From: Desulfovibrio cuneatus DSM 11391
GTDB taxonomy: Bacteria > Desulfobacterota > Desulfovibrionia > Desulfovibrionales > Desulfovibrionaceae
NCBI RefSeq assembly: GCF_000430005.1
Contig: NZ_AUCY01000004.1
Location: forward strand, 1-64,000
Direction of reading: 5' to 3'
Length of the DNA stretch: 64,000 nucleotides
The notes beneath the pieces are model-generated. The model was given only the letters and a program-made list of their open reading frames with translations, was not told the DNA's origin and did no database searches. Below, piece by piece: positions 16,976-57,051 of the stretch. Both the position numbers and the translations under genes were made by a program. How positions within the stretch are numbered: position 1 is the first letter of the stretch; each line of letters starts with the position of its first letter.

Positions 16976-17011
16976 CCACAAAAAAACGCCCTTTTGGGCG
17001 TTTTTTTGTGG
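16976..17011. terminator. bidirectional terminator between purQ and the symporter gene
   Basis: A perfect 16-bp stem with a TTTT loop has a GGGCG core flanked by A7/T7 runs on both sides. It can therefore terminate the convergent purQ (+) and symporter (-) transcripts. Confidence 0.92.
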
Positions 17012-17028
17012 AATAACTCAGCGTTCCC

Positions 17029-18465
17029 CTAAGCCTCTTCCACCAAAGCGTCTTCTTTCTTCCCCGCCAAGGCAAGCGTCAGACCAAAACCTGCCAGGGA
17101 GAATACCATACCTACAAAAAATGGTGGCATGGCGGCCCAGTCTGCACCAAAAATGGGGGAGACCAGGGCTGTTGGCTTGTAAGCCAGCAGGTACCAGCCA
17201 AGGCAGGAAGTGAATCCGCTAATGGCAGAAGCAAGCGCGGCAGGGCCATTTTGTACATTAAACCGCACCAGAGCAATGTAAGGCACCAGGGCTGTGGCCC
17301 CCACCATGCTCCAGCTTGTGGTACACAGCAAAGCGATGAATTGCCCTTCCAACTGGGCACAGGATGCGGAAATAACAACACACAGGGCAATGCCCATAAG
17401 CCAGCCTGCTTTGCCCATTTTCCCACCGCTCAAATCTTCCGAAAAGGCTGAGGCAGCAATGTGGAACAGGGCTGTTGCTGTGGAAATGGAGGCAGAAACA
17501 ATGGCCAGCACAAACAGGTGCAAGCCAAATTCCGGCAACAGCATGTGCACCAGCTTGGGCATTACGGCATCAGGCGAGGCTTGTTCCGGCAGAAAAAGGC
17601 GGGAAAGAGAAGCCGCAAAGTAGGTGCCACCCACCATAATGGTCAGTACTGCCATGGCAAGGGGGGCAGTGCGCCCGGCCTGCTGGGGTGAGCTAACGGC
17701 AAAGTGGCGCTGAATCATTTGTGGCTGTGCCCACACGGCAACAGAGGTAACAAACACCAGGGAAAGCACAAATAATCCTTGCCCCCCACCGGAAAGAGCT
17801 GCAAAACCGTTGGTTGCTTTGGCTGTGGGGGCTAGGGCAGCAAGGCTGCGTATGCCTTCCACCGGGCCACCCACCTTACTAATAACAGCGCCAATAAGCA
17901 GGGCCATACCCAAAAACATCACCACACCTTGCATAGCTTCTGTGTACAGCACCCCGCGAAAACCCCCAATGTACACACTTACGCCCACAAGCAGGGCAAG
18001 GCCCCAAATAATGGCCCACAAGGGAATGGGCAAGAGTTCCAGAAACAGCAACCCCGCGCCTTTGAGCACGGCGGAAGCATACACCCCAAGGAACACCAGG
18101 AAGACCAGGGCAAGAAAGTTTTTCAGGGCTGGAGAATTGTGCCCCAAGGCCAAAAGGGCTGTGGGGGTGCGCGCCCCAAGGCGTTTTTGCCACTGGCGGG
18201 TAGGCCAAGAGAAAAATTTATACACAACCCAGGTGCCCAGCACCACATTGCCAATGGCCACCAGCATTATTTGCAAGCCATAGGCGTGGGCAAGGCCCCC
18301 AAAGCCCACCAGGGCCACAGCGGAAATGTAGGTGGCAACATACGCAAACGCCTGCACAACAAAGCTTACTTTTCCTGAACGGGCTATGTCGTGCCCTTGC
18401 CCCTTGCGGGCAAGAAACACAAACAGGGCAATGTACGCCGTCCAAATGGCACTGTTCAAAAGCAT
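17029..18465 (-). CDS. sodium:solute symporter (SSS) family permease
   Basis: This polytopic inner-membrane protein of about 478 residues has roughly 13 hydrophobic segments. It carries SSS-family features such as the GGFRGVLYTEAMQGVVMFLG segment and the AQPQMIQR motif after a long loop. These carriers couple Na+ influx to uptake of proline, pantothenate, acetate, sugars or similar solutes; the substrate is not evident. The frame extends to 18513, but the ATG at 18465 is preferred. It has GGAG nine bases upstream and starts directly before the first membrane helix. The stop TAG abuts a short remnant of the dispersed repeat end (17010-17028) and then the shared terminator. Confidence 0.88.
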   Translation of the reverse strand: MLLNSAIWTAYIALFVFLARKGQGHDIARSGKVSFVVQAFAYVATYISAVALVGFGGLAHAYGLQIMLVAIGNVVLGTWVVYKFFSWPTRQWQKRLGARTPTALLALGHNSPALKNFLALVFLVFLGVYASAVLKGAGLLFLELLPIPLWAIIWGLALLVGVSVYIGGFRGVLYTEAMQGVVMFLGMALLIGAVISKVGGPVEGIRSLAALAPTAKATNGFAALSGGGQGLFVLSLVFVTSVAVWAQPQMIQRHFAVSSPQQAGRTAPLAMAVLTIMVGGTYFAASLSRLFLPEQASPDAVMPKLVHMLLPEFGLHLFVLAIVSASISTATALFHIAASAFSEDLSGGKMGKAGWLMGIALCVVISASCAQLEGQFIALLCTTSWSMVGATALVPYIALVRFNVQNGPAALASAISGFTSCLGWYLLAYKPTALVSPIFGADWAAMPPFFVGMVFSLAGFGLTLALAGKKEDALVEEA

Positions 18466-18551
18466 GCTGTTTTTCTCCTGCTTGGTTGCTGAGAGTTTGC
18501 CATAATTATGCAATACCCTCGTTTTTGTCGTGTGCTGGCGGGGGCTACCAC

Positions 18552-22281: not shown

Positions 22282-22929
22282 ATGCCTAAAAATACTACCC
22301 TGGATTGCCGGGGGCTGGACTGCCCCACCCCGGTTTTGCTTGTGCGTGAATGCATGGAAGCAACAGCTCCGGCAGTCCTGCGCGTGCTGGTAGACAACCT
22401 GCCCGCAGCGGAAAATGTTACCCGGTTGTTGCACCACTATGGCTATGTCGCTACCGTAACTGAAACAGAGGGCGTATGGGAGCTTTGTGCCCAGCGCCAT
22501 AGCGGGGAAGAATCACCCCCCTCTGCCGCAACAACAAAACCCTCTTTCGCGGCAGCAATGCCAAAACCCCTTGCGCCCGAAGACGCACACAATGGTAAAA
22601 CCCTGGTTGTTATTCCTTGCGAAGGTTTTGGGCAGGGGGACGAGGTTCTGGCCCAGCGCCTTATGCTCAACTTTTTAGCCACCCTGCCGGAAATGGGCAA
22701 TTCCTTGTGGCGGGTGGTACTGCTTAACGGCGGGGTGCGCCTTGCCGCTACGGAAGGCCCAGCACTTGAGTCGTTACAACGCCTGGAGCGTGAAGGTGTG
22801 GACGTGCTGGTGTGCGGCGCGTGCCTTGAGTTTTTCAAACTGACAAAAGAAAAAAAGGTGGGGCAAACTACCAATATGCTTGATATTGTTACCAGCATGC
22901 AGCTTGCCGCAAAGGTTGTGCGTATATGA
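22282..22929 (+). CDS. yedF: sulfurtransferase-like selenium metabolism protein YedF
   Basis: This 215-residue protein has an N-terminal TusA-like domain with the CPTP motif at 14-17 (C14). A C-terminal DsrE-like domain contains FGQGDEVLAQRLM and VLVCGACLEFFKL. The combination defines the YedF family associated with selenium trafficking in organisms that make selenoproteins. TusA-type cysteines relay sulfur or selenium as persulfide or perselenide; the exact role of YedF is unproven. The ATG at 22282 is chosen because AAGGAG precedes it and it starts right before the TusA strand; a frame start at 22240 lacks this. Its stop overlaps the pseudouridine synthase start (ATGA). Confidence 0.9.
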   Translation: MPKNTTLDCRGLDCPTPVLLVRECMEATAPAVLRVLVDNLPAAENVTRLLHHYGYVATVTETEGVWELCAQRHSGEESPPSAATTKPSFAAAMPKPLAPEDAHNGKTLVVIPCEGFGQGDEVLAQRLMLNFLATLPEMGNSLWRVVLLNGGVRLAATEGPALESLQRLEREGVDVLVCGACLEFFKLTKEKKVGQTTNMLDIVTSMQLAAKVVRI

Positions 22930-23675
22930 GTGAAATGCGTTTGAATAAAGCCCTGGCCGAAGCCGGAGTGTGTTCCCGCCGCAAGGCTGACGAACTTATT
23001 GCCGCAGGCTGGGTCACGGTGAATGGCCAGGTGGTGCAGGAAATGGGGCTGCGCGTTACCCCCGGCAAAGACGCCATTGCCGTGCAAGGACAAAAGGTAT
23101 TTTTTACCCCAGGCCAGCAGGATGAAAAAATATATGTATTGTTGCACAAACCCGTACAGGTGGTATGCACCGCCAGCGACCCACAGGGCCGCGCTACCGT
23201 GCTGGACTACCTGCCCCAGCACCTGAAAAACAAGCGCCTGTACCCGGTGGGGCGGCTGGACTATTTCTCCGAAGGGTTGCTTTTGCTCACAGACGACGGT
23301 GAGCTGACCCACCGCCTGACCCACCCGCGCTACCACCTGCCCAAAGAATATGAAGTGCAGGTGCGGGAAATGCCCACCCAGCGCATGCTGGAAACCATGC
23401 ACCGGGGTATGACCCTGGCCGAAGGGGAACGCCTTGCCCCGGTGGAAGCCCATGTGGCCCCGGATGCCCCCAACACCTTGCACCTTGTACTGCACCAGGG
23501 GCTGAACCGCCAAATTCGGCGTATGTGCCGCGACCTTGGCCTGACCATTTTGCGTCTTACTCGCGTAAGCCTTGGTCCCATAAGCCTTGGCGATTTGCCC
23601 AGCGGGAAAGCCCGGGTGCTGTACCACGATGAAATCGTAACCCTACGCCGCGCTGCCGGGCTTGGGAAACGCTGA
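22926..23675 (+). CDS. RluB/RsuA-family 16S/23S rRNA pseudouridine synthase
   Basis: This 249-residue enzyme has an N-terminal S4 RNA-binding domain (about 2-60, starting MRLNKALAEAG). The RsuA-type catalytic domain follows, with GRLDYFSEGLLLLT and catalytic D112. The C-terminal RNA-contact motif contains GLNRQIRRMC. It isomerises a specific uridine in rRNA; RluB-like 23S specificity is likely from length, but RluE/RsuA functions are not excluded. It is translationally coupled to yedF by an ATGA overlap. The last codons (GGGAAACGC) and the TGA stop lie inside the left end of a dispersed repeat element, so the element supplies the C-terminal residues and termination codon. Confidence 0.93.
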   Translation: MSEMRLNKALAEAGVCSRRKADELIAAGWVTVNGQVVQEMGLRVTPGKDAIAVQGQKVFFTPGQQDEKIYVLLHKPVQVVCTASDPQGRATVLDYLPQHLKNKRLYPVGRLDYFSEGLLLLTDDGELTHRLTHPRYHLPKEYEVQVREMPTQRMLETMHRGMTLAEGERLAPVEAHVAPDAPNTLHLVLHQGLNRQIRRMCRDLGLTILRLTRVSLGPISLGDLPSGKARVLYHDEIVTLRRAAGLGKR

Positions 23676-23964
23676 TTTATTCCGTTTGGCGGTGTTATAC
23701 CCCTAAAGCCGACGGCAGTCGCGAGCATAGCGAGCCATGGAGTGAGGGCGGAGGGTACGGGTGGCTTTGCCGCCCGCACATTTCCACGAGGCCCGAGCGG
23801 AAAAAAGAAACAGTCGAGGACGGAAGAGTTGACTCGGCCCGTCCTGGGCCTCGGCCTTCGGCTCCCGCCCTTTGGGCAGTTCCCAATTCCGCTTTCCTGC
23901 GGAATTGTCACTCCTGCTTCAAAAAAAGCTCGCGCCTTGCCAAACGAAATAACTACGCGTTTCC
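23665..23964 (+). repeat. mosaic intergenic element, copy A (full length)
   Basis: This 300-bp element is bounded by imperfect 26-bp terminal inverted repeats, GGAAACGCTGATTTATTCCG... at 23665-23690 and its counterpart at 23939-23964, identical at 22 of 26 positions. It contains two modules. Module 1 is the AAAGCCGACGGCAGTCGCGA segment with a following GC-rich hairpin. Module 2 runs from GTTGACTCGGCCCGTCCTGG through a CCGCTTTCCTGCGG hairpin. It has no ORF that looks like a gene. The left end lies inside the pseudouridine synthase stop region. Confidence 0.8.
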
Positions 23965-24030
23965 AAAATACCATTTAAGTAGTATTTCTCTAACCAAAGA
24001 ACAAGGGAGGCAGAGCCTCACCAATGCTTA

Positions 24031-25596
24031 TTATTTTTTCAACCTGTTACGCAGCGCATGGAGCGGGGCTAGCAAGTCTGGTCGCAACAACTGGGCAAGG
24101 CCAAGGTAGACAGCGCAAAACACCACACCGCTGGCGCAGATGAATACGAATGCCCCTGCCAGAGAATATTCCGGGAACAGGCTTTGCAGCAACCGGCCTG
24201 TAAGCCCGGCAGCCAGCTTTGCCGGAATGCACAGGCATAGGGCAATAAAGGCCAAGGTAGCCACCCCGGCAAGGGCCCCTGCCCCATGCCGGCGCCACCA
24301 CACAAAGCACAACAGCCCGGTGTACAGCGCCACCCCAAAGGCCCCGGCAAAGGCAATGCCCAGCGGCCCAAGGGAAATGGCACCATAATAATAGGCCCCC
24401 AGGGTAAACACCGTAGCCAAAGTGCCCAGCAGGGCCGGGGTAAGGGTGTCTTGGCAGGCATAGTAAGCCCGGCCCATAATTTGCTGAATGGTCCAGAACA
24501 CCACGCTGGCCATCATCACCGCCAGTAAGAGGCCAGATTGCGCCGCAGCCTTGGGTGTGAAGCTGCCCTGCTGGAATACAAGGCGCATAATGGGTTCTGC
24601 CGCTACCATCATCCATAGGGAAACAGGAAACGCCACCAGCAGGGCATTTTGCAACGTGGTGTTCAGGGACGCTTCAAACCTGCGCTTGTCGCCCTTTGCC
24701 ACCAACCCTGCCAGAAACGGGAAGGACGCAAGCCCTGCGGCCTGGGCAATAACCCCCACCGGCACAAGCATAATGCGCCGGGCATAGCTGAGCAGGCTCA
24801 CGCTGCCTTCATGCGCCAACGACCCAAAAATACGGATAAACTGCTCGTCCAGGCTGACAATGGACTGCCCAAGCATAAGGGGCAGGGCCAGCTTCAGCAC
24901 TGTTTTCATCATGGGGTGGGCAAGGCGCGGGGTAAAACGCAGGCCACCAGCCCGCACAGCCCACAGGGGCAAGGCAAAGCTGCCAGCAAAGGCCCCGGCC
25001 AGCACCCCCCAGCAAAACCCTTCCATGCCTTGTTCAGGCGCAAGAGCAAGCCCGGCAAGGCCCCCCAGAATAATGGCCCCGTTGTAGAATAACGGGGTAA
25101 GGGCGGGCACGGTAAATTGCTTGCGGCAGTAAAGCACAGCCGTAAAGCAGGCCCCTGGCAGGAAAAATATTTGGGCAGGTAAAATAATGCGTAGGTAGCG
25201 GGCCAGAAGCAGGCTTTTTTCACCGGAAAAGCCGGGGGCCACCAGCTTTGCAAGCTGCGGGGCAAACAACCACCCCAGCAGGCAAAACAGGCTTATGGCC
25301 AGGGTGGCCCAGCACACGGCAGCGGAAAAAAAGCGCCAAGCGTCGTCCTCGTCTTCCAGAAAACGCCGGGAAAGCAGCGGCACAAGGGTAATGGAAAAAT
25401 ACCCGCCTGCCAGCAAATAGCTAATGAAGTCTGGCACAACGAAAGCGGTGAAATACACATCGCTTTCCATGCCAGAACCAAAGTAGTAGGAAATAATTTT
25501 ATCACGCACAAGGCCAAGAATACGCGAAAGAAAAACGCTTATTCCCAATGCCACGGCTGCCAGCCCGGCACTTTGTGCGCGCAATAGCAGCGCCAT
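24031..25596 (-). CDS. murJ: lipid II flippase MurJ (MviN)
   Basis: This 521-residue polytopic inner-membrane protein of the MOP superfamily has about 14 helices and translocates lipid II for peptidoglycan synthesis. Family features include the N-terminal SRILGLVRDKIISYYFGSG, the arginine-bearing central cavity segment and the ARRIMLVPVGVIAQAAGLAS region in TM7-8. The ATG at 25596 has AAGGAG at good spacing; an earlier frame start at 25626 has none. The gene stands alone on the minus strand. It is flanked on both sides by same-orientation copies of the dispersed element (A and B), so recombination between these copies would delete or excise murJ, an essential gene in most bacteria. Confidence 0.93.
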   Translation of the reverse strand: MALLLRAQSAGLAAVALGISVFLSRILGLVRDKIISYYFGSGMESDVYFTAFVVPDFISYLLAGGYFSITLVPLLSRRFLEDEDDAWRFFSAAVCWATLAISLFCLLGWLFAPQLAKLVAPGFSGEKSLLLARYLRIILPAQIFFLPGACFTAVLYCRKQFTVPALTPLFYNGAIILGGLAGLALAPEQGMEGFCWGVLAGAFAGSFALPLWAVRAGGLRFTPRLAHPMMKTVLKLALPLMLGQSIVSLDEQFIRIFGSLAHEGSVSLLSYARRIMLVPVGVIAQAAGLASFPFLAGLVAKGDKRRFEASLNTTLQNALLVAFPVSLWMMVAAEPIMRLVFQQGSFTPKAAAQSGLLLAVMMASVVFWTIQQIMGRAYYACQDTLTPALLGTLATVFTLGAYYYGAISLGPLGIAFAGAFGVALYTGLLCFVWWRRHGAGALAGVATLAFIALCLCIPAKLAAGLTGRLLQSLFPEYSLAGAFVFICASGVVFCAVYLGLAQLLRPDLLAPLHALRNRLKK

Positions 25597-25721
25597 ATGC
25601 TCTCCTTGCCACCACGAAACCTTCACTGGTCATCATGGGGCCTATCCCTGTGTAAGGCAGGCAACGCGCCCGCCCCGGTAAAGCGGCACTATACGCAAGC
25701 TTCCCACCCACAGCAAGACAA

Positions 25722-26046
25722 GGAAACGCTGATTTATTCCGTTTGGCTGCGTTACTTCACTTTTTTTCGCTCTTGCAGCGGGTTATACGCTTCGGCGGTG
25801 TAGCCGCCTTTGCCCCGCCGCCTCGCTCTACGGCTCGCTACGCTCGCGACTGCCGTCGGCTTTTATGAAACAGTCGAAGACAGAAGAGTTGACTCGGCCC
25901 GTCCTGGGCCTCGGCCTTCGGCTCCCGCCCTGCGGGCAGTTCCCAATTCCGCTTTCCTGCGGAATTGGGAACTCCTGCTTCAAAAAAAGCTCGCGCACAG
26001 AGCCTGTGTCCCCGACCTTGCCAAACGAAATAACTGCGCGTTTGCC
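25722..26046 (+). repeat. mosaic intergenic element, copy B (full length, module 1 inverted)
   Basis: This 325-bp element has terminal inverted repeats at 25722-25747 and 26020-26046, nearly identical to those of copy A and in the same orientation. Module 2 (GTTGACTCGGCCCGTCCTGG onward) is collinear and almost identical to copy A. Module 1 is present as the reverse complement: it reads GCGACTGCCGTCGGC here and GCCGACGGCAGTCGC in copy A. A further insert, ACAGAGCCTGTGTCCCCGAC, precedes the right end. No coding sequence is apparent. Confidence 0.8.
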
Positions 26047-26201
26047 AAATTCCCTGTAATTAGTGGTTCCTTAACGGGGGCACCCTTGACAGTTCTTGCC
26101 CTGCTTGAGTAACGTATCAAAACGATTTACATGAGTCTTGTCTTTTCTGTGGCACATGGTTTTTCCCTGCATGGCCTGCACCCATTACGGAACGAGCGCA
26201 T

Positions 26202-26756
26202 ATGGTTACCCTCCCTGCTTTCATCACTCCTTCCCCCAGCAAAATTTCGCCTGAAGGCTGCATGAGCATTGTGGGCATGGCAGGCGCTGGCAAAACCACT
26301 ATTGGCAAGGAAATTGCCACCCTGCTCAACTGGGCCCACCTGGACAGCGACCATGTGATTGAAGCAACTTACGGGGCCCCGCTGCAACACATTACCAACA
26401 GCATGAGTAAAGACGCCTTCCTTGACCTTGAAAGCGCTGTTATTCAACGCCTGAACGTGCGGCGCACCGTTATTTCCACCGGGGGGAGCGCTGTGTACAG
26501 GCCGGAAAGCATACGCTACCTGCAAAGCCTTGGCCCCATATTGTATATTGCCGTGCCTCTGGAAATTATTCTGGAGCGCATTGCCAGAAAGCCGGAACGC
26601 GGCCTTGCCATTGCCCCTGGGCAAACGGTGGAAGATTTGTATTATGAGCGCGCCACACTCTATGCCGCAGCAGCCACCTTCATTGTGCAAGGGGGCAGTG
26701 CCCCTGCCCAAGACTATGCACGTGAAGCTGCGGAATGGCTTGAGGCAACAGAATGA
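26202..26756 (+). CDS. shikimate-kinase-fold P-loop kinase, possibly homoserine kinase
   Basis: This 184-residue P-loop kinase has Walker A GMAGAGKT at 25-32 and the acidic pair D48/D50 in LDSD. It also has a lid and distal R near the ERATLY segment, so the shikimate kinase fold is clear. Several substrate-site residues are unusual. The Gly-Gly-Gly motif reads TGGS (93-96), the FREIE-type arginine is replaced in AFLDLESAV (72-80), and the RPLL arginine region reads RKPERGLA. True shikimate kinases keep these. I recall that a shikimate-kinase-like protein has been proposed as the missing homoserine kinase of Desulfovibrio, which would explain the divergence; this cannot be confirmed here. An alternative start at 26262 (M21) also has a GAAGG sequence. 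The stop overlaps the next gene by ATGA. Confidence 0.75.
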   Translation: MVTLPAFITPSPSKISPEGCMSIVGMAGAGKTTIGKEIATLLNWAHLDSDHVIEATYGAPLQHITNSMSKDAFLDLESAVIQRLNVRRTVISTGGSAVYRPESIRYLQSLGPILYIAVPLEIILERIARKPERGLAIAPGQTVEDLYYERATLYAAAATFIVQGGSAPAQDYAREAAEWLEATE

Positions 26757-29934: not shown

Positions 29935-29978
29935 AGGTGGTTCCTGCAATACTGTCAAATAGCATTTGGGTAACGCTT

Positions 29979-30049
29979 GGTTTTTTGTTTGGCAAGGCAC
30001 GATTTTTTTGAGGAAGTAACGTAGCGAAACGGAATGAATGCGCGTTTCC
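29979..30049 (-). repeat. mosaic intergenic element, copy D (71-bp minimal form)
   Basis: Only the two ends of the element remain: GTTTGGCAAGGCACG on one side and the complement of GGAAACGCGCATTCATTCCG on the other. A short TTTTTTTGAGGAAGTAACG joint connects them, with no module 1 or 2. Read on the minus strand it begins immediately after the T-run of the mlaA terminator. Confidence 0.65.
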
Positions 30050-36702: not shown

Positions 36703-36924
36703 GAGGTATCCGGTATGCTTATTGGTGAAAAAAATGCCTGCAACGCAACCTGAACAGCAGTGCCACTGAGAGCTGTTGAAAATAAAGTGCTCTGCACAAG
36801 GCGCTTGATGGCAGCAAAGGCAAGGCAGTTCTTATACAGCAAAATGCAGCAGCATGCAAAGGGCAACTCGTGCCCTCTTTTTGCAGTAAAAAACAGAGTG
36901 GAGAGTCTTTTTCTTAAAAAATAT

Positions 36925-36962
36925 GAAGCAACGCCGCCAAACGGAATAACTCAGCGTTTCTC
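36925..36962 (-). repeat. dispersed element end (left arm only), copy G
   Basis: On the minus strand GAGAAACGCTGAGTTATTCC is followed by GTTTGGCGGCGTTGC, matching the left arm of copies A and B at nearly every base. No right arm or internal module follows. The TGA stop of the GT9 gene lies within the arm. Confidence 0.65.
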
Positions 36963-38498
36963 TAAGAGGCTGGTAAGCCTCTCAACCCATTGCAGCACTG
37001 TGCCCCGTGCAGCAAGGCTGCCATTAGCGTTTTGCAGGAACATTTGCGCGTACCCGGCAAGCGGGTGTACTAACTGTGGTGTTTCTTGCCACTGTTCGCT
37101 GAATTTATGGGAAAAATCTTTTGGCTCGGCAGGTAGCCGCACAGTGAACAAGGCAAGAGCACGGGCCGCACCCTGCAAGGCCTTGGCCAATTCCGGGTGC
37201 TGCTGGGCAAGGGCTGCGGCGGTGTGTTCCAGGGGTATTGCAGGGGCGTGGCCAAGAGTGCTTATAAACCATTGTTGCCAAAAATTGGCTAGCAGTTGCC
37301 GGGCTTGGGGCACGCCGGGCTCTGCAAAGGCAAGCAGTCCTGTGGTTTCTGCCTCATTGCCATTACGGGTGCTATGCTGCTGGCCCGGCAAGGCCCGGCC
37401 TGTGCACAGGGTGGTAAGGGTATAAAGGCCTTCTTTCCCCCTGCCCGACTCCAACAATTCCAGGCCTGCCAGACGTGTGGCAAGACCTGTGCGTTGAAAG
37501 GCGGCAGCCGCATCGTCCTTCTGTTGGGAGTTGCCTTGTAAAATGGCTTCTACTGCCGCAATCACCCTGGGGGGGGCTATGTGCTTGTGGCAGGTAAGAG
37601 GGGGGCAGGCGTTCCAGCACCCGGTGCAGTCCAGGTTGGCCCGCAGCACATGGTGCCCAGGAAAAAACGGCCCTGTTTCCCAGGCATGCACAGGCCCCAT
37701 GGAAAGGTTCAGCACAGGCGTCTGCGCCCACACGGCAAGGTGCATGGGGCCAGTATCCGGCGTAATGAACAAATCGAGCTCTGCAATAAATGCCACCAGC
37801 TCTGCCAGGGAAAACCGACCGCACATGTTGGTAACGTCACCCACCTGGGCGGCTACCGCCCGCCCCAGGGGTTGTTCGGCAGGTCCACCCAATAATACAG
37901 GTTTGGCACCTTTGGCGCGCAGGAGTTTTGTAAGCTCAGCCCAGAAAGAGGCATTGGGATGTTTTTCCGGTTCGCTTGCCCCCAAAAAAAGACCAATGCG
38001 TGGGCTGTGCCCCTTGGCACTAGCTGCCAAGGCACGGGGTGCAGACCATACACTGTTCTTCACTGCGGCTAAGGAAACCATGTCCAAGGCATTCAAGTCT
38101 GCCCAGTGGAACAGGTTATAGCGATTGTTGCCTGTAAGTCCGGCGCGGTACAGTTGCCATGCCCCTTGAATATGCAGCGCTTGCCCGCCAGCATCTTTCA
38201 TATACGGGCCAAACAGGGCGTCGCTGTGCAGGCTGCCTGCCAGCAGAGCCGCCTCGGGCCTGTGGCTTAAATTTAACACAATATGGAATTGGTGCTGGCG
38301 TAATTGATCCAGTTTACTGGCATCAAAATAGGTAATGCCGGGGGTAAGGGGCTGCAATGGTGCAGAAAACATGCGCTCTGCCACCACCCACACAGGGTGC
38401 CCAGGAAAAGAACGCTGCAACAGGCGCACCGCCGGGCAGGAAAGCACCAGGTCGCCCATGCGTTGCATTTGCAAAACAAGTAACGGAGCCTTACTCAT
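36951..38498 (-). CDS. glycosyltransferase family 9 (heptosyltransferase-like) with C-terminal extension
   Basis: This protein of about 515 residues has an N-terminal GT9 region (about 1-330). LQMQRMGDLVLSCPAVRLL is the usual N-terminus, and IGLFLGASEPEKHPNASFW begins the second Rossmann half. The FITPDTGPMHLAVW motif is the nucleotide-sugar site of heptosyltransferases. A cysteine-rich stretch (CTGCWNACPPLTC) follows, then about 190 residues I do not recognise. GT9 enzymes add heptose or related sugars to LPS core or to proteins. It follows a CgeB/DUF3880 glycosyltransferase on the same strand, so both probably modify one acceptor; flagellin is possible. The start at 38498 replaces 38531 because it opens directly into the fold. 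The stop codon lies within a repeat arm (GAGAAACGCTGA). Confidence 0.82.
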   Translation of the reverse strand: MSKAPLLVLQMQRMGDLVLSCPAVRLLQRSFPGHPVWVVAERMFSAPLQPLTPGITYFDASKLDQLRQHQFHIVLNLSHRPEAALLAGSLHSDALFGPYMKDAGGQALHIQGAWQLYRAGLTGNNRYNLFHWADLNALDMVSLAAVKNSVWSAPRALAASAKGHSPRIGLFLGASEPEKHPNASFWAELTKLLRAKGAKPVLLGGPAEQPLGRAVAAQVGDVTNMCGRFSLAELVAFIAELDLFITPDTGPMHLAVWAQTPVLNLSMGPVHAWETGPFFPGHHVLRANLDCTGCWNACPPLTCHKHIAPPRVIAAVEAILQGNSQQKDDAAAAFQRTGLATRLAGLELLESGRGKEGLYTLTTLCTGRALPGQQHSTRNGNEAETTGLLAFAEPGVPQARQLLANFWQQWFISTLGHAPAIPLEHTAAALAQQHPELAKALQGAARALALFTVRLPAEPKDFSHKFSEQWQETPQLVHPLAGYAQMFLQNANGSLAARGTVLQWVERLTSLLEKR

Positions 38499-38552
38499 GG
38501 CGAGGGGGCCCCCCTTCATGCAAAACCACATTCATTATCCACATGGTCCACA

Positions 38553-41767: not shown

Positions 41768-41868
41768 AACAGCCTCTATGGGTAAGCTAAGGGTGAAGCC
41801 AATTTCCTGACGCAAGGCCAGAGCAATGGTCTAGTAGTATTGAAGACAACCATTTTACATGGCACTTG

Positions 41869-42071
41869 GGAAGTGCTCATTTTTTCGTTTGGCAAGGCAC
41901 GAGTTTTTTTTGAGGCGGGTGCTGCCAATTCCGCAGGAAAGCGGAATTGGGAACCGCGCGCAGTGCGGGAGCCGAAGGCCGAGGCCCAGGACGGGCCGAG
42001 TCAACTCTTTGGTCCTGCCCCGCTTCAAAAAAAAGCGAGTAACGCCGCCAAACGGAAAAATGAGTGCTTCC
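41869..42071 (-). repeat. mosaic intergenic element, copy C (module 2 only)
   Basis: This 203-bp element between pyrB and pyrC is oriented opposite to copies A and B. Its 25-base arms (41869-41893 and 42047-42071) match each other at 22 of 25 positions. Both have changed in concert from GGAAACGCTGATT to a GGAAGYRCTCATT form. Only module 2 (GTTGACTCGGCCCGTCCTGG region in reverse) lies inside. It starts two bases before the pyrB stop codon. Confidence 0.8.
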
Positions 42072-42072
42072 C

Positions 42073-43023
42073 CTAGGTTTCGGCAGGGCCGGAAGACCTA
42101 GAGCCGTAGATAAATAACAGTGCCATGCGGGTGGCAACCCCGGCGGCAACCTGGTCCAGAATGCGGCTTTGCGGCGCGTCTGCCAGTTCGGAAGAAATTT
42201 CAATACCACGGTTAATGGGGCCAGGGTGCATAATAACAGCACCAGGGGCTGCCATGGCAAGGTGGCGCTGCCCAAGGCAAAACCGCGTGGCATATTCACG
42301 CAGGTCTGGCAACAGGCCTGCCTGCTGGCGTTCCAGTTGCAGGCGCAGGCACATAAGGGCGTCTGCCCCTTCCGCGGCTTCTTCCAGGGTGTGGCACACC
42401 GTGGCAGGCCAGGTAGAAACATGGGCAGGCAACAAGGTGCGCGGGGCAAACAGGCGCACGTTTACCCCCAGGCGGGAAAGCAACATGACGTTGGAGCGGG
42501 CCACACGGCTGTGGGCAATGTCCCCAAAAATACTGACCGTTTTACCGGCAAAGTTCCCGCCCCACTGCTGGTACAGGGTAAAAGCATCCAGCAGGGCCTG
42601 GGTGGGGTGGGCGTGCCAGCCGTCCCCTGCGTTCACCACACTGCATTCAAGGCGCTGGGCCAAAAAAGCGGCTGCCCCGCTGGAAGAATGGCGAATAACA
42701 ATAATATCCGGGCTCATGGCTTGCAGGGTAAGGGCAGTATCCTTCAGGGTTTCGCCCTTGTTCATACTGCTACCAGACTTGCTGAGGGAAAAGGTATCTG
42801 CTGAAAGACGCTTGCCGGCTACATCAAATGAAAGCCGGGTACGCGTACTGTCTTCCGCAAAAAAAAGTACCACGCTCTTGCCTCGAAGAGTAGGTACTTT
42901 CTTGATAGGTCTGGCATTAATTTCCTGAAACTGTTCTGCTGTACGTAAAATATGGAGTGCTTCACTGGGGGTAAGGTCGGTTACATCCAGCAGGTCTTTA
43001 TGGGGCCATGGTTTATCGCTCAT
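42073..43023 (-). CDS. pyrB: aspartate carbamoyltransferase catalytic subunit
   Basis: This 316-residue enzyme forms carbamoyl aspartate in pyrimidine synthesis. The carbamoyl-phosphate loop reads [10 protein letters not shown] (near residue 57), with the usual STRTR. The aspartate/carbamoyl domain shows [14 protein letters not shown] and [12 protein letters not shown] clear AGGAGG lies about nine bases before the ATG. No pyrI regulatory gene is nearby, so this is probably the stand-alone or PyrC-associated form. The region upstream holds a short GC hairpin followed by TTTT (43089-43104), which could be an attenuator, although this is weak. Confidence 0.95.
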
Positions 43024-48881: not shown

Positions 48882-48892
48882 AAATATTCACT

Positions 48893-49012
48893 CGGGCGTC
48901 GTGGAGATGCTTCGGCGGCATAGCCGCCTGTGCCCTCCGCCCTCGCTCCACGGCTCGCGACTGCCGTCGGCTTTAGGGTAGCAACGCCGCCAAGCGGAAA
49001 AAACAGCGCTTT
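48893..49012 (-). repeat. mosaic intergenic element, copy E (left arm plus module 1)
   Basis: On the minus strand, immediately after the metG TAG, the sequence AAAGCGCTGTTTTTTCCGCT and then TGGCGGCGTTGC matches the left arm. Module 1 follows in copy A orientation (GCCGACGGCAGTCGCGAGCC) with its GGCGGC/GCCGCC hairpin. Module 2 and the right arm are missing. Confidence 0.7.
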
Positions 49013-50968
49013 CTAGCTTACTTGAGAACCGTTGGGGACCACTCCGCTTGCCTGTACCAACTCCAGCCCGGTTTCTGTTTTTACTGCCAGAATCATGCCG
49101 TGGGAATCCAGCCCGCGCATGGCCCGAGGGGCCAGGTTAGCCACCACCACCACCTGTTTGCCCACCAAATCTTGCGGGGCAAAATAGGCAGCAATGCCTG
49201 CAAGCACTTGGCGGGGTTTTTCTTCCCCAAGGTCCACCAGCACACGCAACAGCTTGTCTGCATTGGGGTGCGGTTCACATTCAACCACGGTGCCAGCCCG
49301 CATGTCTATTTTGGCAAAATCTTCAAACTGAATGGTGGCAGGGGCTTCCGTTGCCTTGGCAGCTTCTTTGGCCTTGGGGGCCGGGGTCTTTTTCTCATTC
49401 ACAGGCGCGGGTGCTGGCGCTTCTTCTTTGGCGGCCAGTTCCACCCTGGGGAACAGGTTGGAGTTTTTGGCCACTTCTGTGCCCGGCACAAGGCCGTTAA
49501 AATGCCCAATTTCCCCTTGCAGGTTGGCCTTGGCACCATCAAACGGCACGCCAAGCTGTTCCAACATACGCTCTGCCTTGCCGGGCATAATGGGCCACAC
49601 GTGCAGCGCTATTTTACGCATACATTCCAGAAGCATATACAGCACAGTGTGCAGGCGTTCCGTTTCGCCATTCTTGGCTAATGCCCAAGGCGCGGCAGTG
49701 TCTACATATTTGTTCAGGCCGCGAACCAGTTCCCACAGGGCTTCAATACCCTGAGAAAAGCGCATGGACCCCAAAAGCATTTGAAAATTGCGCATACTGT
49801 CGTCTGCAAGGCGTACCAAATCTTCTTCCAGCGGGGTAAACGCCCCTGGCGCTGGAACCCGGCTGCCGCAGAACTTGGCTGTCATGGCAAGCACGCGGGA
49901 ATACAGGTTGCCAAGGTCGTTGGCAAGGTCGGCATTCAAGCGGGCCACCAAAGCATCTTCGGAAAAACTGGCATCGTTGCCAAAGTGCATTTCACGCAGC
50001 AGGAAGTAGCGGAAGGCGTCAATGCCATACTGCTCTGCCATGCCCAGGGGGGAAACCACGTTGCCAATGCTTTTAGACATTTTCATGTCCCGCACCAGCC
50101 AGTAGCCATGCACATTCAAGTGGTTGTAAATGGGCAGGTTGGCGGCTTTGAGCATGGTAGGCCAGAAAATAGCATGGGGCTTTAAAATGTCTTTTGCCAC
50201 CAGGTGCTGGGCGCTGGGCCAGTATTTGGCAAACCCTTCTGATTCCACCCCGCCAAGGGCGCTGATGTAGGTTAGCAAGGCATCAAACCACACATAGCAC
50301 ACATAGTCTTTATCAAAGGGCAGTTCAATGCCCCAGGTAAGGCGGCTTTTAGGCCGGGAAATGCACAAGTCCTCCAGCTCGCCGCTTTCCAGCAGGGCCA
50401 GAGCTTCCGTGCGGTAGCGTTCCGGGCGGATAAAGTCAGGATTATTGCGAATGTGGTCTTTCAGCCAGTCGGCATATTTGCTCATGCGGAAAAAGTAGTT
50501 TTTCTCGCTAATGTATTCCGGCTTAGTGAGGTGCTGGGGGCACATGCCGTTTTCCAGCTCTTTTTCCGTATAAAACCGTTCACAGCCAAGGCAGTAATGC
50601 CCGCCATATTCCCCAAAATAAATATCGCCGGAATCGTACACGCGCTGCAAAAACGCCTGCACTTCCTTGATGTGGGCCGGGTCTGTGGTGCGCATAAAGG
50701 CATGGGGCTCTGTTTCCAGCTTGGGCCACAAAGCGCGGAATGAATCACTCACTTCTGTGGTAAATACTTCTGGCGCTTTGCCTGCCTTTTCTGCAGCCTG
50801 CACAATTTTGTCACCATGTTCGTCTGTTCCGGTAATAAACACGGCATCATCACCCATCATGCGGTGAAAACGGGTGGCAACGTCTGCCACAATGGTGGTA
50901 AAGGCATGCCCCAGGTGGGGGTTGGCATTCACATAATAAATTGGCGTTGTTAAATAAAACTTGTTCAC
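49013..50968 (-). CDS. metG: methionyl-tRNA synthetase
   Basis: This 651-residue class I synthetase has HLGH (residues 18-21), the zinc-binding knuckle with CLGC and a later CPQH, and KMSKS near 303. The C-terminal OB-fold tRNA-binding domain (about 545-651) begins at IDMRAGTVVECEPHPNADKL. A Lys/Ala/Pro-rich linker joins the two parts. It charges initiator and elongator tRNA-Met. It starts 36 bases after the ricT-like gene's stop, so both are likely co-transcribed. The stop codon TAG is followed at once by copy E of the dispersed element. Confidence 0.97.
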   Translation of the reverse strand: MNKFYLTTPIYYVNANPHLGHAFTTIVADVATRFHRMMGDDAVFITGTDEHGDKIVQAAEKAGKAPEVFTTEVSDSFRALWPKLETEPHAFMRTTDPAHIKEVQAFLQRVYDSGDIYFGEYGGHYCLGCERFYTEKELENGMCPQHLTKPEYISEKNYFFRMSKYADWLKDHIRNNPDFIRPERYRTEALALLESGELEDLCISRPKSRLTWGIELPFDKDYVCYVWFDALLTYISALGGVESEGFAKYWPSAQHLVAKDILKPHAIFWPTMLKAANLPIYNHLNVHGYWLVRDMKMSKSIGNVVSPLGMAEQYGIDAFRYFLLREMHFGNDASFSEDALVARLNADLANDLGNLYSRVLAMTAKFCGSRVPAPGAFTPLEEDLVRLADDSMRNFQMLLGSMRFSQGIEALWELVRGLNKYVDTAAPWALAKNGETERLHTVLYMLLECMRKIALHVWPIMPGKAERMLEQLGVPFDGAKANLQGEIGHFNGLVPGTEVAKNSNLFPRVELAAKEEAPAPAPVNEKKTPAPKAKEAAKATEAPATIQFEDFAKIDMRAGTVVECEPHPNADKLLRVLVDLGEEKPRQVLAGIAAYFAPQDLVGKQVVVVANLAPRAMRGLDSHGMILAVKTETGLELVQASGVVPNGSQVS

Positions 50969-53145: not shown

Positions 53146-53213
53146 TTTCCGCTTTCCCGCTCCTTCGGCGGGGTGCATGCTTCGGCGGCAGAGCCGCCTA
53201 CGCTCCACGGCTG
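53146..53213 (+). repeat. mosaic intergenic element fragment, copy F (module 1)
   Basis: A short fragment after the ACT gene carries the module 1 hairpin CTTCGGCGGCAGAGCCGCC followed by CTCCACGGCTGGCT. It is in copy B orientation, preceded by TTTTTCCGCTTTCC, which resembles a degraded arm. Nothing of module 2 is present. Confidence 0.55.
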
Positions 53214-57018: not shown

Positions 57019-57051
57019 TACCGCAACGAAACGAAATTAATCAACGTTTCC
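57019..57051 (-). repeat. dispersed element end, copy H
   Basis: On the minus strand AGGAAACGTTGATTAATTTCG followed by TTTCGTTGCGG resembles the left arm with scattered changes. No internal module or second arm could be found, so it is a relic or a solo arm. Confidence 0.45.

Follow-up and report, generated by a model that had tools for sequence, protein, structure and literature searches.

The 64,000-nucleotide stretch analysed here (hereafter the window; C2:1-64000 of a 3.36-Mb draft genome in 76 contigs) carries short repeats with inverted ends, and the question that they raise is what kind of element they are, what moved them and whether the host keeps them for a reason. An earlier note had described three copies, A, B and C, as sharing inverted ends and a near-identical internal module, had seen no transposase in any of them, and had likened them to MITEs or REPINs. 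The repeats are real: the left end GGAAACGCTGATTTATTCCGTTTGGC occurs without mismatch at 23665 and 25722 and with two mismatches on the minus strand at 36936-36961, and these three matches in the window compare with none in 100 shuffles. The internal module agrees at 96% between copy A (23807-23907) and copy B (25867-25967), its counterpart in copy C agrees with the complement of B at 86% and with that of A at 91%, and no transposase was seen in any copy in the window. The analysis presented below makes it very probable that the repeats are an IS5-type MITE family, moved in trans and mostly immobile in this genome, whose hairpin appears to have been retained.

The left ends had been placed correctly, and the right ends about 25 bp too far in. 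Between its true outer ends, copy A (23665-23989, plus strand) is 325 bp long, and its left end supplies gene 22926-23675, which encodes an rRNA pseudouridine synthase, with its last two codons and its TGA. Copy B (25722-26070, plus strand; 349 bp) lies between murJ and a homoserine kinase gene (NF040667), while copy C (minus strand, 41844-42071) has a decayed right end near 41844 and a left end (42071) 1 bp from the stop codon of pyrB (42073-43023). Three optional modules are found in these copies. M1 (~102 bp) occurs in both orientations, at 25762-25863 on the plus strand in copy B and inverted relative to it at 23705-23805 on the minus strand in copy A, and in some copies of the family substitutes for part of the left stem. 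M2 (80 bp, beginning GACTCGGCCCGTCCTGG) is located in the central loop, at 23831-23910 in A and 25891-25970 in B, both on the plus strand, and at 41923-42002 on the minus strand in C. M3 (21 bp, CACAGAGCCTGTGTCCCCGAC) was identified from the sequence at 25996-26016 on the plus strand of copy B.

Most of the shorter relatives that had been listed were recovered, all on the minus strand. They comprise the short, diverged copy D (29944-30049, the lower bound of its right end being extrapolated), a solitary left end (36915-36961) whose TGA terminates gene 36951-38531 (with a weak likeness to heptosyltransferases, below cut-off), a left end directly next to the stop codon of metG (gene 49013-50968) and joined to M1 (48885-49013, with M1 itself at 48885-48974 on the plus strand), a diverged single end (57019-57051), and a left-end stub (17010-17028) adjoining the stop codon (17029) of gene 17029-18513, which is symporter-like, below cut-off. 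The stretch 53146-53213, with no strand assigned, is an M1-like fragment by eye; it has no MITE end and is absent from the M1 matches at E<1e-3.

The family extends well beyond the window. With copy B as query, the whole draft gave at least 86 matches, on many contigs, when 40 of 444 first-look candidates were scored. Profiles of the two ends, run over 864 kb (C1-C4, window included) at E<0.01, returned 89 left and 102 right matches, two sets that overlap because the profiles partly match the same arms, and none in reversed sequence; merged at E<1e-4 the end matches form 74 clusters, which by extrapolation would correspond to some 290 clusters genome-wide. The copies were not contained in any annotated IS, as far as tested. 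A complete unit with its flanks reads YTAR/GGAAACGCTGATTTATTCCGTTTGGC...GCGTTTCC-AAAATGCCATTTAATCAGTGCTTCC/YTAR, starting with GGAAACGCTGATTTATTCCG and finishing with AAAATGCCATTTAATCAGTGCTTCC, with YTAR-like flanks at either side. From 99 raw pairings of left and right ends, 29 were kept for the duplication count and 35 for the stop-codon count given below, the dropped pairings being those with weak ends or mispaired inner right arms. All but one of the 35 complete units measure 148-349 bp, too short for a transposase gene, as is the remaining one at 492 bp; the core is 148-152 bp, and units with optional modules reach 228-349 bp, apart from that of 492 bp.

No MITE end was present within 160 bp of 15 of 42 M1 matches and 6 of 23 M2 matches, some of which adjoin another repeat, GGGGAGGCTCTGCCTCCCC. 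Because M1 and M2 are present away from MITE ends, the mosaic structure is best read as a MITE that received other repeat modules. We also considered whether a 126-bp unit with its end at the inner GCGTTTCC moves separately, and rejected this, since a duplication at that point was seen in 0 of 52 copies; the tail fades continuously past the inner GCGTTTCC, with a mean likeness of 0.68 vs 0.43 for control DNA. Rfam gave no match above gathering score in the window and only 6S RNA at loci L031, L064 and L269, and phage and plasmid records gave no match to the family. We found no name for it, as the earlier note had supposed, in the literature searched, including that on Desulfovibrio, a search outside which most subscription papers fall; an IS5-type MITE family of this kind is thus apparently undescribed so far in the searchable literature.

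Copies in relatives are the fresher ones. Family matches were found in at least 6 of 149 genomes, this one included, with five candidates per genome scored; besides G131 and G149, related copies occur in G151 and in a further two genera of the family. Exact 4-bp duplications flank 20 of 27 copies in relatives (13/16 in G131 and 7/11 in G149; shuffles, mean 5.6 and maximum 13), these copies having been taken from the best matches listed, which favours intact ones (near-full-length blast matches: 16 of 30 in G131, 11 of 15 in G149). In the genome under study, duplications of this length flank 4 of 29 complete copies (1.04 in shuffled data, P = 0.0165), with none at 5-9 bp, and they were present in 3 of 16 own copies under selection matched to G131. 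Our initial reading of a 2-bp TA duplication was replaced by the 4-bp one on the basis of IS5 loci and of own and relatives' copies.

A copy between trpE and trpG (C4:87305-87455; gene names from reading translated sequence) provides a likely empty-site comparison. The TTAG on its left is the trpE stop, and the TTAG on its right opens a Shine-Dalgarno-like TTAGGAG before trpG, so that the gap of 164 bp is the sum of 151, 4 and 9 bp. Twelve genomes of the genus show gaps of -17 to 62 bp, among them 10 bp in G152 and 12 bp in G149, as measured at fetched loci with both genes after extending the trpE frame to its stop, and with G095 (second gene absent there) and G150 (no match) left out. The empty site is thus judged by gene spacing at one locus, in relatives whose trpE is only 54-65% identical. 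At the copy A junction, the pseudouridine synthase finishes within a few residues of it in 10 of 11 relatives (L303 diverges earlier), and no MITE end was found within 25 bp after its stop in any of the 11 examined.

These duplications bear on the REPIN half of the earlier comparison. A REPIN/RAYT or other single-strand (Y1, IS200/IS605) system would account for extragenic, high-copy hairpins, and Y1 transposases do occur in this genome, with 10 PF01797 matches, at contig ends. Y1 transposition, however, is not known to leave a target duplication, whereas the relatives' copies show 4-bp ones, and the Y1 matches resemble one multi-copy IS200-type element rather than a single-copy RAYT. No MITE ends were seen by eye in the first and last 320 bases of 8 Y1 loci, and no RAYT carrying GGAAACGC ends was found among the ten matches (8 loci viewed in part). 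We therefore hold a single-strand system to be highly improbable, and retain the comparison with MITEs alone. Separately, a GAAACGCTTGA stretch in an IS200-like end was not accepted as kinship to the MITE.

A candidate partner transposase is present in the same genus. Searches of this genome with PF01609 and PF13358 (DDE_Tnp_1 and DDE_3) found none; contigs C63-C76 (14 contigs of 1.0-2.7 kb) are N throughout in the sequence searched, and absence of the transposase from this genome is for that reason unproven. In a congener, locus L103, of which 238 residues match a public Desulfovibrio sp. Pc512_bin87 contig at full identity, carries a truncated IS5-family ORF (NF033581, 247 bits against a cut-off of 140; DUF772 + DDE_Tnp_1). 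This ORF starts 40 bp inside an end, CTAG/GGAAACGCGGATTTACTCCGTT, that differs from the MITE left end at 2 of 22 positions; no right end was found at L103. A fragment at L088/L198, 85% alike to L103, ends in GGAAGCACTGAATAAAG, with 4 mismatches in 22 to the MITE right end, so the two matches come from two different IS copies, each incomplete. No likeness to the IS interior was seen beyond ~25 bp at the L103 left end.

The flanks of IS5 loci were scanned by script for 32 of the 80 loci listed. Both ends and flanks were visible in 20 of the 32, and by eye the flanking 4-mers were identical in 14 of these 20 (TTAA, TTAG, CTAG, CTAA, CTTG, CTAT and CTAC). One published source gives YTAR as the IS5 target (PMC10359306). 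Among 17 genomes examined, an IS5-type transposase was present in 10 and was not found in G131, G149, G017, G034 or the genome studied here; G131, G149 and G017 hold good MITE copies without a detected partner. The two-ORF IS5-family transposases of G131 and G149 (L109 and L085), which we take to be of the IS427 type, were rejected as partners, being flanked by other inverted repeats. Taken together, the inverted ends, the 4-bp duplications in relatives, the short gap in relatives at the trpE-trpG site and the IS5-type ends of the candidate partner support reading the repeats as a MITE family with IS5-type ends, passengers without genes.

Copies in this genome have decayed unevenly. Among 26 core-length copies, pairwise identity is 0.93 in the left arm, 0.926 in the inner right arm and 0.78-0.82 in the stem/loop, and 0.50 in the right terminal 25 bp. 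The corresponding values are 0.948, 0.967, 0.91-0.94 and, for the tail, 0.923 in G131, and 0.908, 0.921, 0.83-0.91 and 0.806 in G149; when own copies are ranked by blast similarity to a G131 copy, in line with how the relatives' copies were chosen, the top 16 have a left arm at 0.92 and a tail at 0.62. When own copies are anchored at the centre, likeness to the consensus is 0.86-0.90 in the left arm and 0.61-0.70 in the tail, with a control at 0.44-0.48, and copies that kept the left arm and lost the tail exceed the reverse by 20:2 of 52, 9:2 of 35 and 5:2 of 27 from loose to strict anchor. Centre-anchored copies in G131 have a tail likeness of 0.96 and a ratio of 0:0 of 16, and those in G149 0.84 and 1:0 of 12. 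The loss of target duplications tells independently of tail decay that the insertions in this genome are old.

Likeness of the arms could also be maintained by homogenisation, that is, by recombination or by template switching, whether among copies or between arms, rather than by selection; in its favour, the copies are numerous and palindromic and their arms pair within copies. Tapering tracts would predict the reverse of the observed gradient, though, in which the outermost left bases beside unique DNA stand at 0.93 and the hairpin middle at ~0.78, and the same arm-to-arm differences recur in most copies, which leaves homogenisation an unlikely account. Pairing of the arms is itself extensive: 95.4% of cells pair in a set of 46 copies drawn from three genomes, and two-sided changes number 113 vs 36.3 in shuffled data and 7-18 in slid controls, counts that are inflated by related rows. 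The same copies show no excess of pair types (31 vs 31.1 shuffled), and the RNAalifold covariation term for own copies alone is nil (-0.03). One own copy has a hairpin whose stability far exceeds that of shuffles (z of -4.65 and -9.69 on the two strands). Right-to-left RNA folds stabler in 51 of 53 copies, a result that sits badly with a simple sense-strand role, the stop-codon bias described next making left-to-right the sense strand. A reading as intrinsic terminators was rejected, a scan over 23400-26400 having given 7 vs 6.2 in shuffled sequence, no excess.

Position relative to genes is asymmetric as well. With gene calls taken from codon-scored ORFs produced within this analysis, the stop codon of the gene alongside falls at the junction (-12 to +1 bp) of 30 of 61 left ends; for right ends the figure is 3 of 33, although the window there was widened to -16 to +1 (Fisher P = 8.5e-5). 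Among the 35 complete units a stop lies at 16 left and 3 right ends (binomial P = 0.0044). Genes in the window that end at a MITE left end are pyrB, metG, gene 36951-38531 and the pseudouridine synthase gene. The bias is absent in relatives (4 left and 2 right of 27 in G131 and G149), which is why docking looks like retention rather than targeting, as far as such small numbers allow.

That step is challenged by a reading in which the same IS5-type MITE has no host function, and arms, hairpin and docking are by-products of spread and insertion survival, insertions at stop codons being harmless. It leaves the rest of the account as it stands. In its favour, YTAR includes TAA and TAG, stop codons make up 143 of the 1300 non-genic YTAR sites, the young copies of relatives show neither stop nor orientation bias, and arm conservation is high in each of the three genomes. 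With random orientation, however, an estimated 5.5% or so of left ends (half of 11%) would fall on a YTAR stop, against 15 of 61 left and 1 of 33 right ends observed; the right end, equally required for transposition, has nevertheless decayed here; and the excess of tail-less over left-less copies given above, although only 5:2 at the strictest anchor, compares with 0:0 of 16 in G131 and 1:0 of 12 in G149. We rate this reading at only a little short of an even chance. The case for regarding the family as a relic in this genome is, in our judgement, good; that for a hairpin kept for a reason is moderate and falls short of proof.

Under the explanation that we favour, an NF033581-type IS5 transposase would move the MITEs in trans as non-autonomous derivatives, as their ends and duplications indicate, recognising asymmetric ends, GGAAACGCTGATTTATTCC on the left and GGAAGCACTGATTAAATGG on the right. 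The unit would insert into YTAR and duplicate those 4 bp. Since YTAR contains TAA or TAG, insertion into a stop codon would leave the stop on the left and restore the identical 4 bp on the right, where, as seen at the single trpE-trpG site, they may also open the Shine-Dalgarno of the next gene. Copies in this genome are mostly old and, their right ends and duplications having decayed and no partner having been found, probably immobile. The 126-bp hairpin has been kept and left ends lie on gene stops above chance, which suggests that the host may maintain it as a structured element at 3' ends or between cistrons. The stronger proposal, that hundreds of dead IS5-type MITEs have been co-opted genome-wide as 3'-end or intercistronic hairpins, their left ends on stop codons, while right end and duplications decay, is possible, though we offer it with some doubt.

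What emerges is an apparently unnamed Desulfovibrionaceae repeat family tied to a likely transposase, to a target rule and to an empty site. The family also amounts to a natural experiment, with young, intact-duplication copies in sister genomes and old copies here that have lost one transposon end to decay while keeping the hairpin, so that the question whether bacterial MITEs are retained for function becomes countable instead of anecdotal. Among known systems, the IS5 family of the NF033581 type shares the GGAARCRCTGATTWA end type and the 4-bp YTAR duplication, and differs in that the MITE is 150-350 bp long, without a transposase gene and with an interior hairpin and modules. REP and REPIN sequences are likewise high-copy extragenic hairpins, but the present family leaves target duplications and no RAYT with its ends was found. 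Correia (CREE) and ERIC elements are short, non-coding palindromes of variable size and mostly extragenic, and our family is like them in all of these respects; their ends and target duplications are different. According to one review, RNase III cleaves at Correia TIRs, and ERIC elements located at gene 3' ends have effects (PMC10969869). MITEAba12 of Acinetobacter, as far as its description was available, differs in its length (111-114 bp), its 9-bp duplication, its resident partner and the lack of inner modules in that text; like the family described here, it is a non-coding unit derived from an IS, with duplications in 40% of 90 copies and one gene whose 3' end is fused to the MITE (PMC6382973).

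Module M1 (window 48885-48974; locus L041, 4313-4413), found inside some copies of the IS5-type MITE family of the Desulfovibrio cuneatus genome and also away from MITE ends, is a GC-rich sequence of approximately 102 bp that forms a hairpin. It occurs in tandem pairs and also adjoins other repeats, and looks like a separate repeat family in its own right. A further repeat (L041, 4278-4312; L032, 13070-13104) adjoins stand-alone M1 and M2, the second such module, and comprises the hairpin GGGGAGGCTCTGCCTCCCC, with AAGGGCATGATTGACTCGG close by. A 6S RNA gene (Rfam RF00013, 60.2 bits) is located at L031, 6859-7045.

A multi-copy, IS200-like Y1 transposase is located at contig ends (loci L224-L231), where it seems to have broken the draft assembly. 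The 14 smallest contigs (C63-C76) contain only N in the sequence examined.

With five candidates scored per genome, the best MITE copies in G017, a genome from another genus of the same family, showed 85-88% identity to the D. cuneatus query, whereas those in the same-genus relative G131 reached only 79-81% in the same search. This closer similarity across genera may reflect horizontal transfer.
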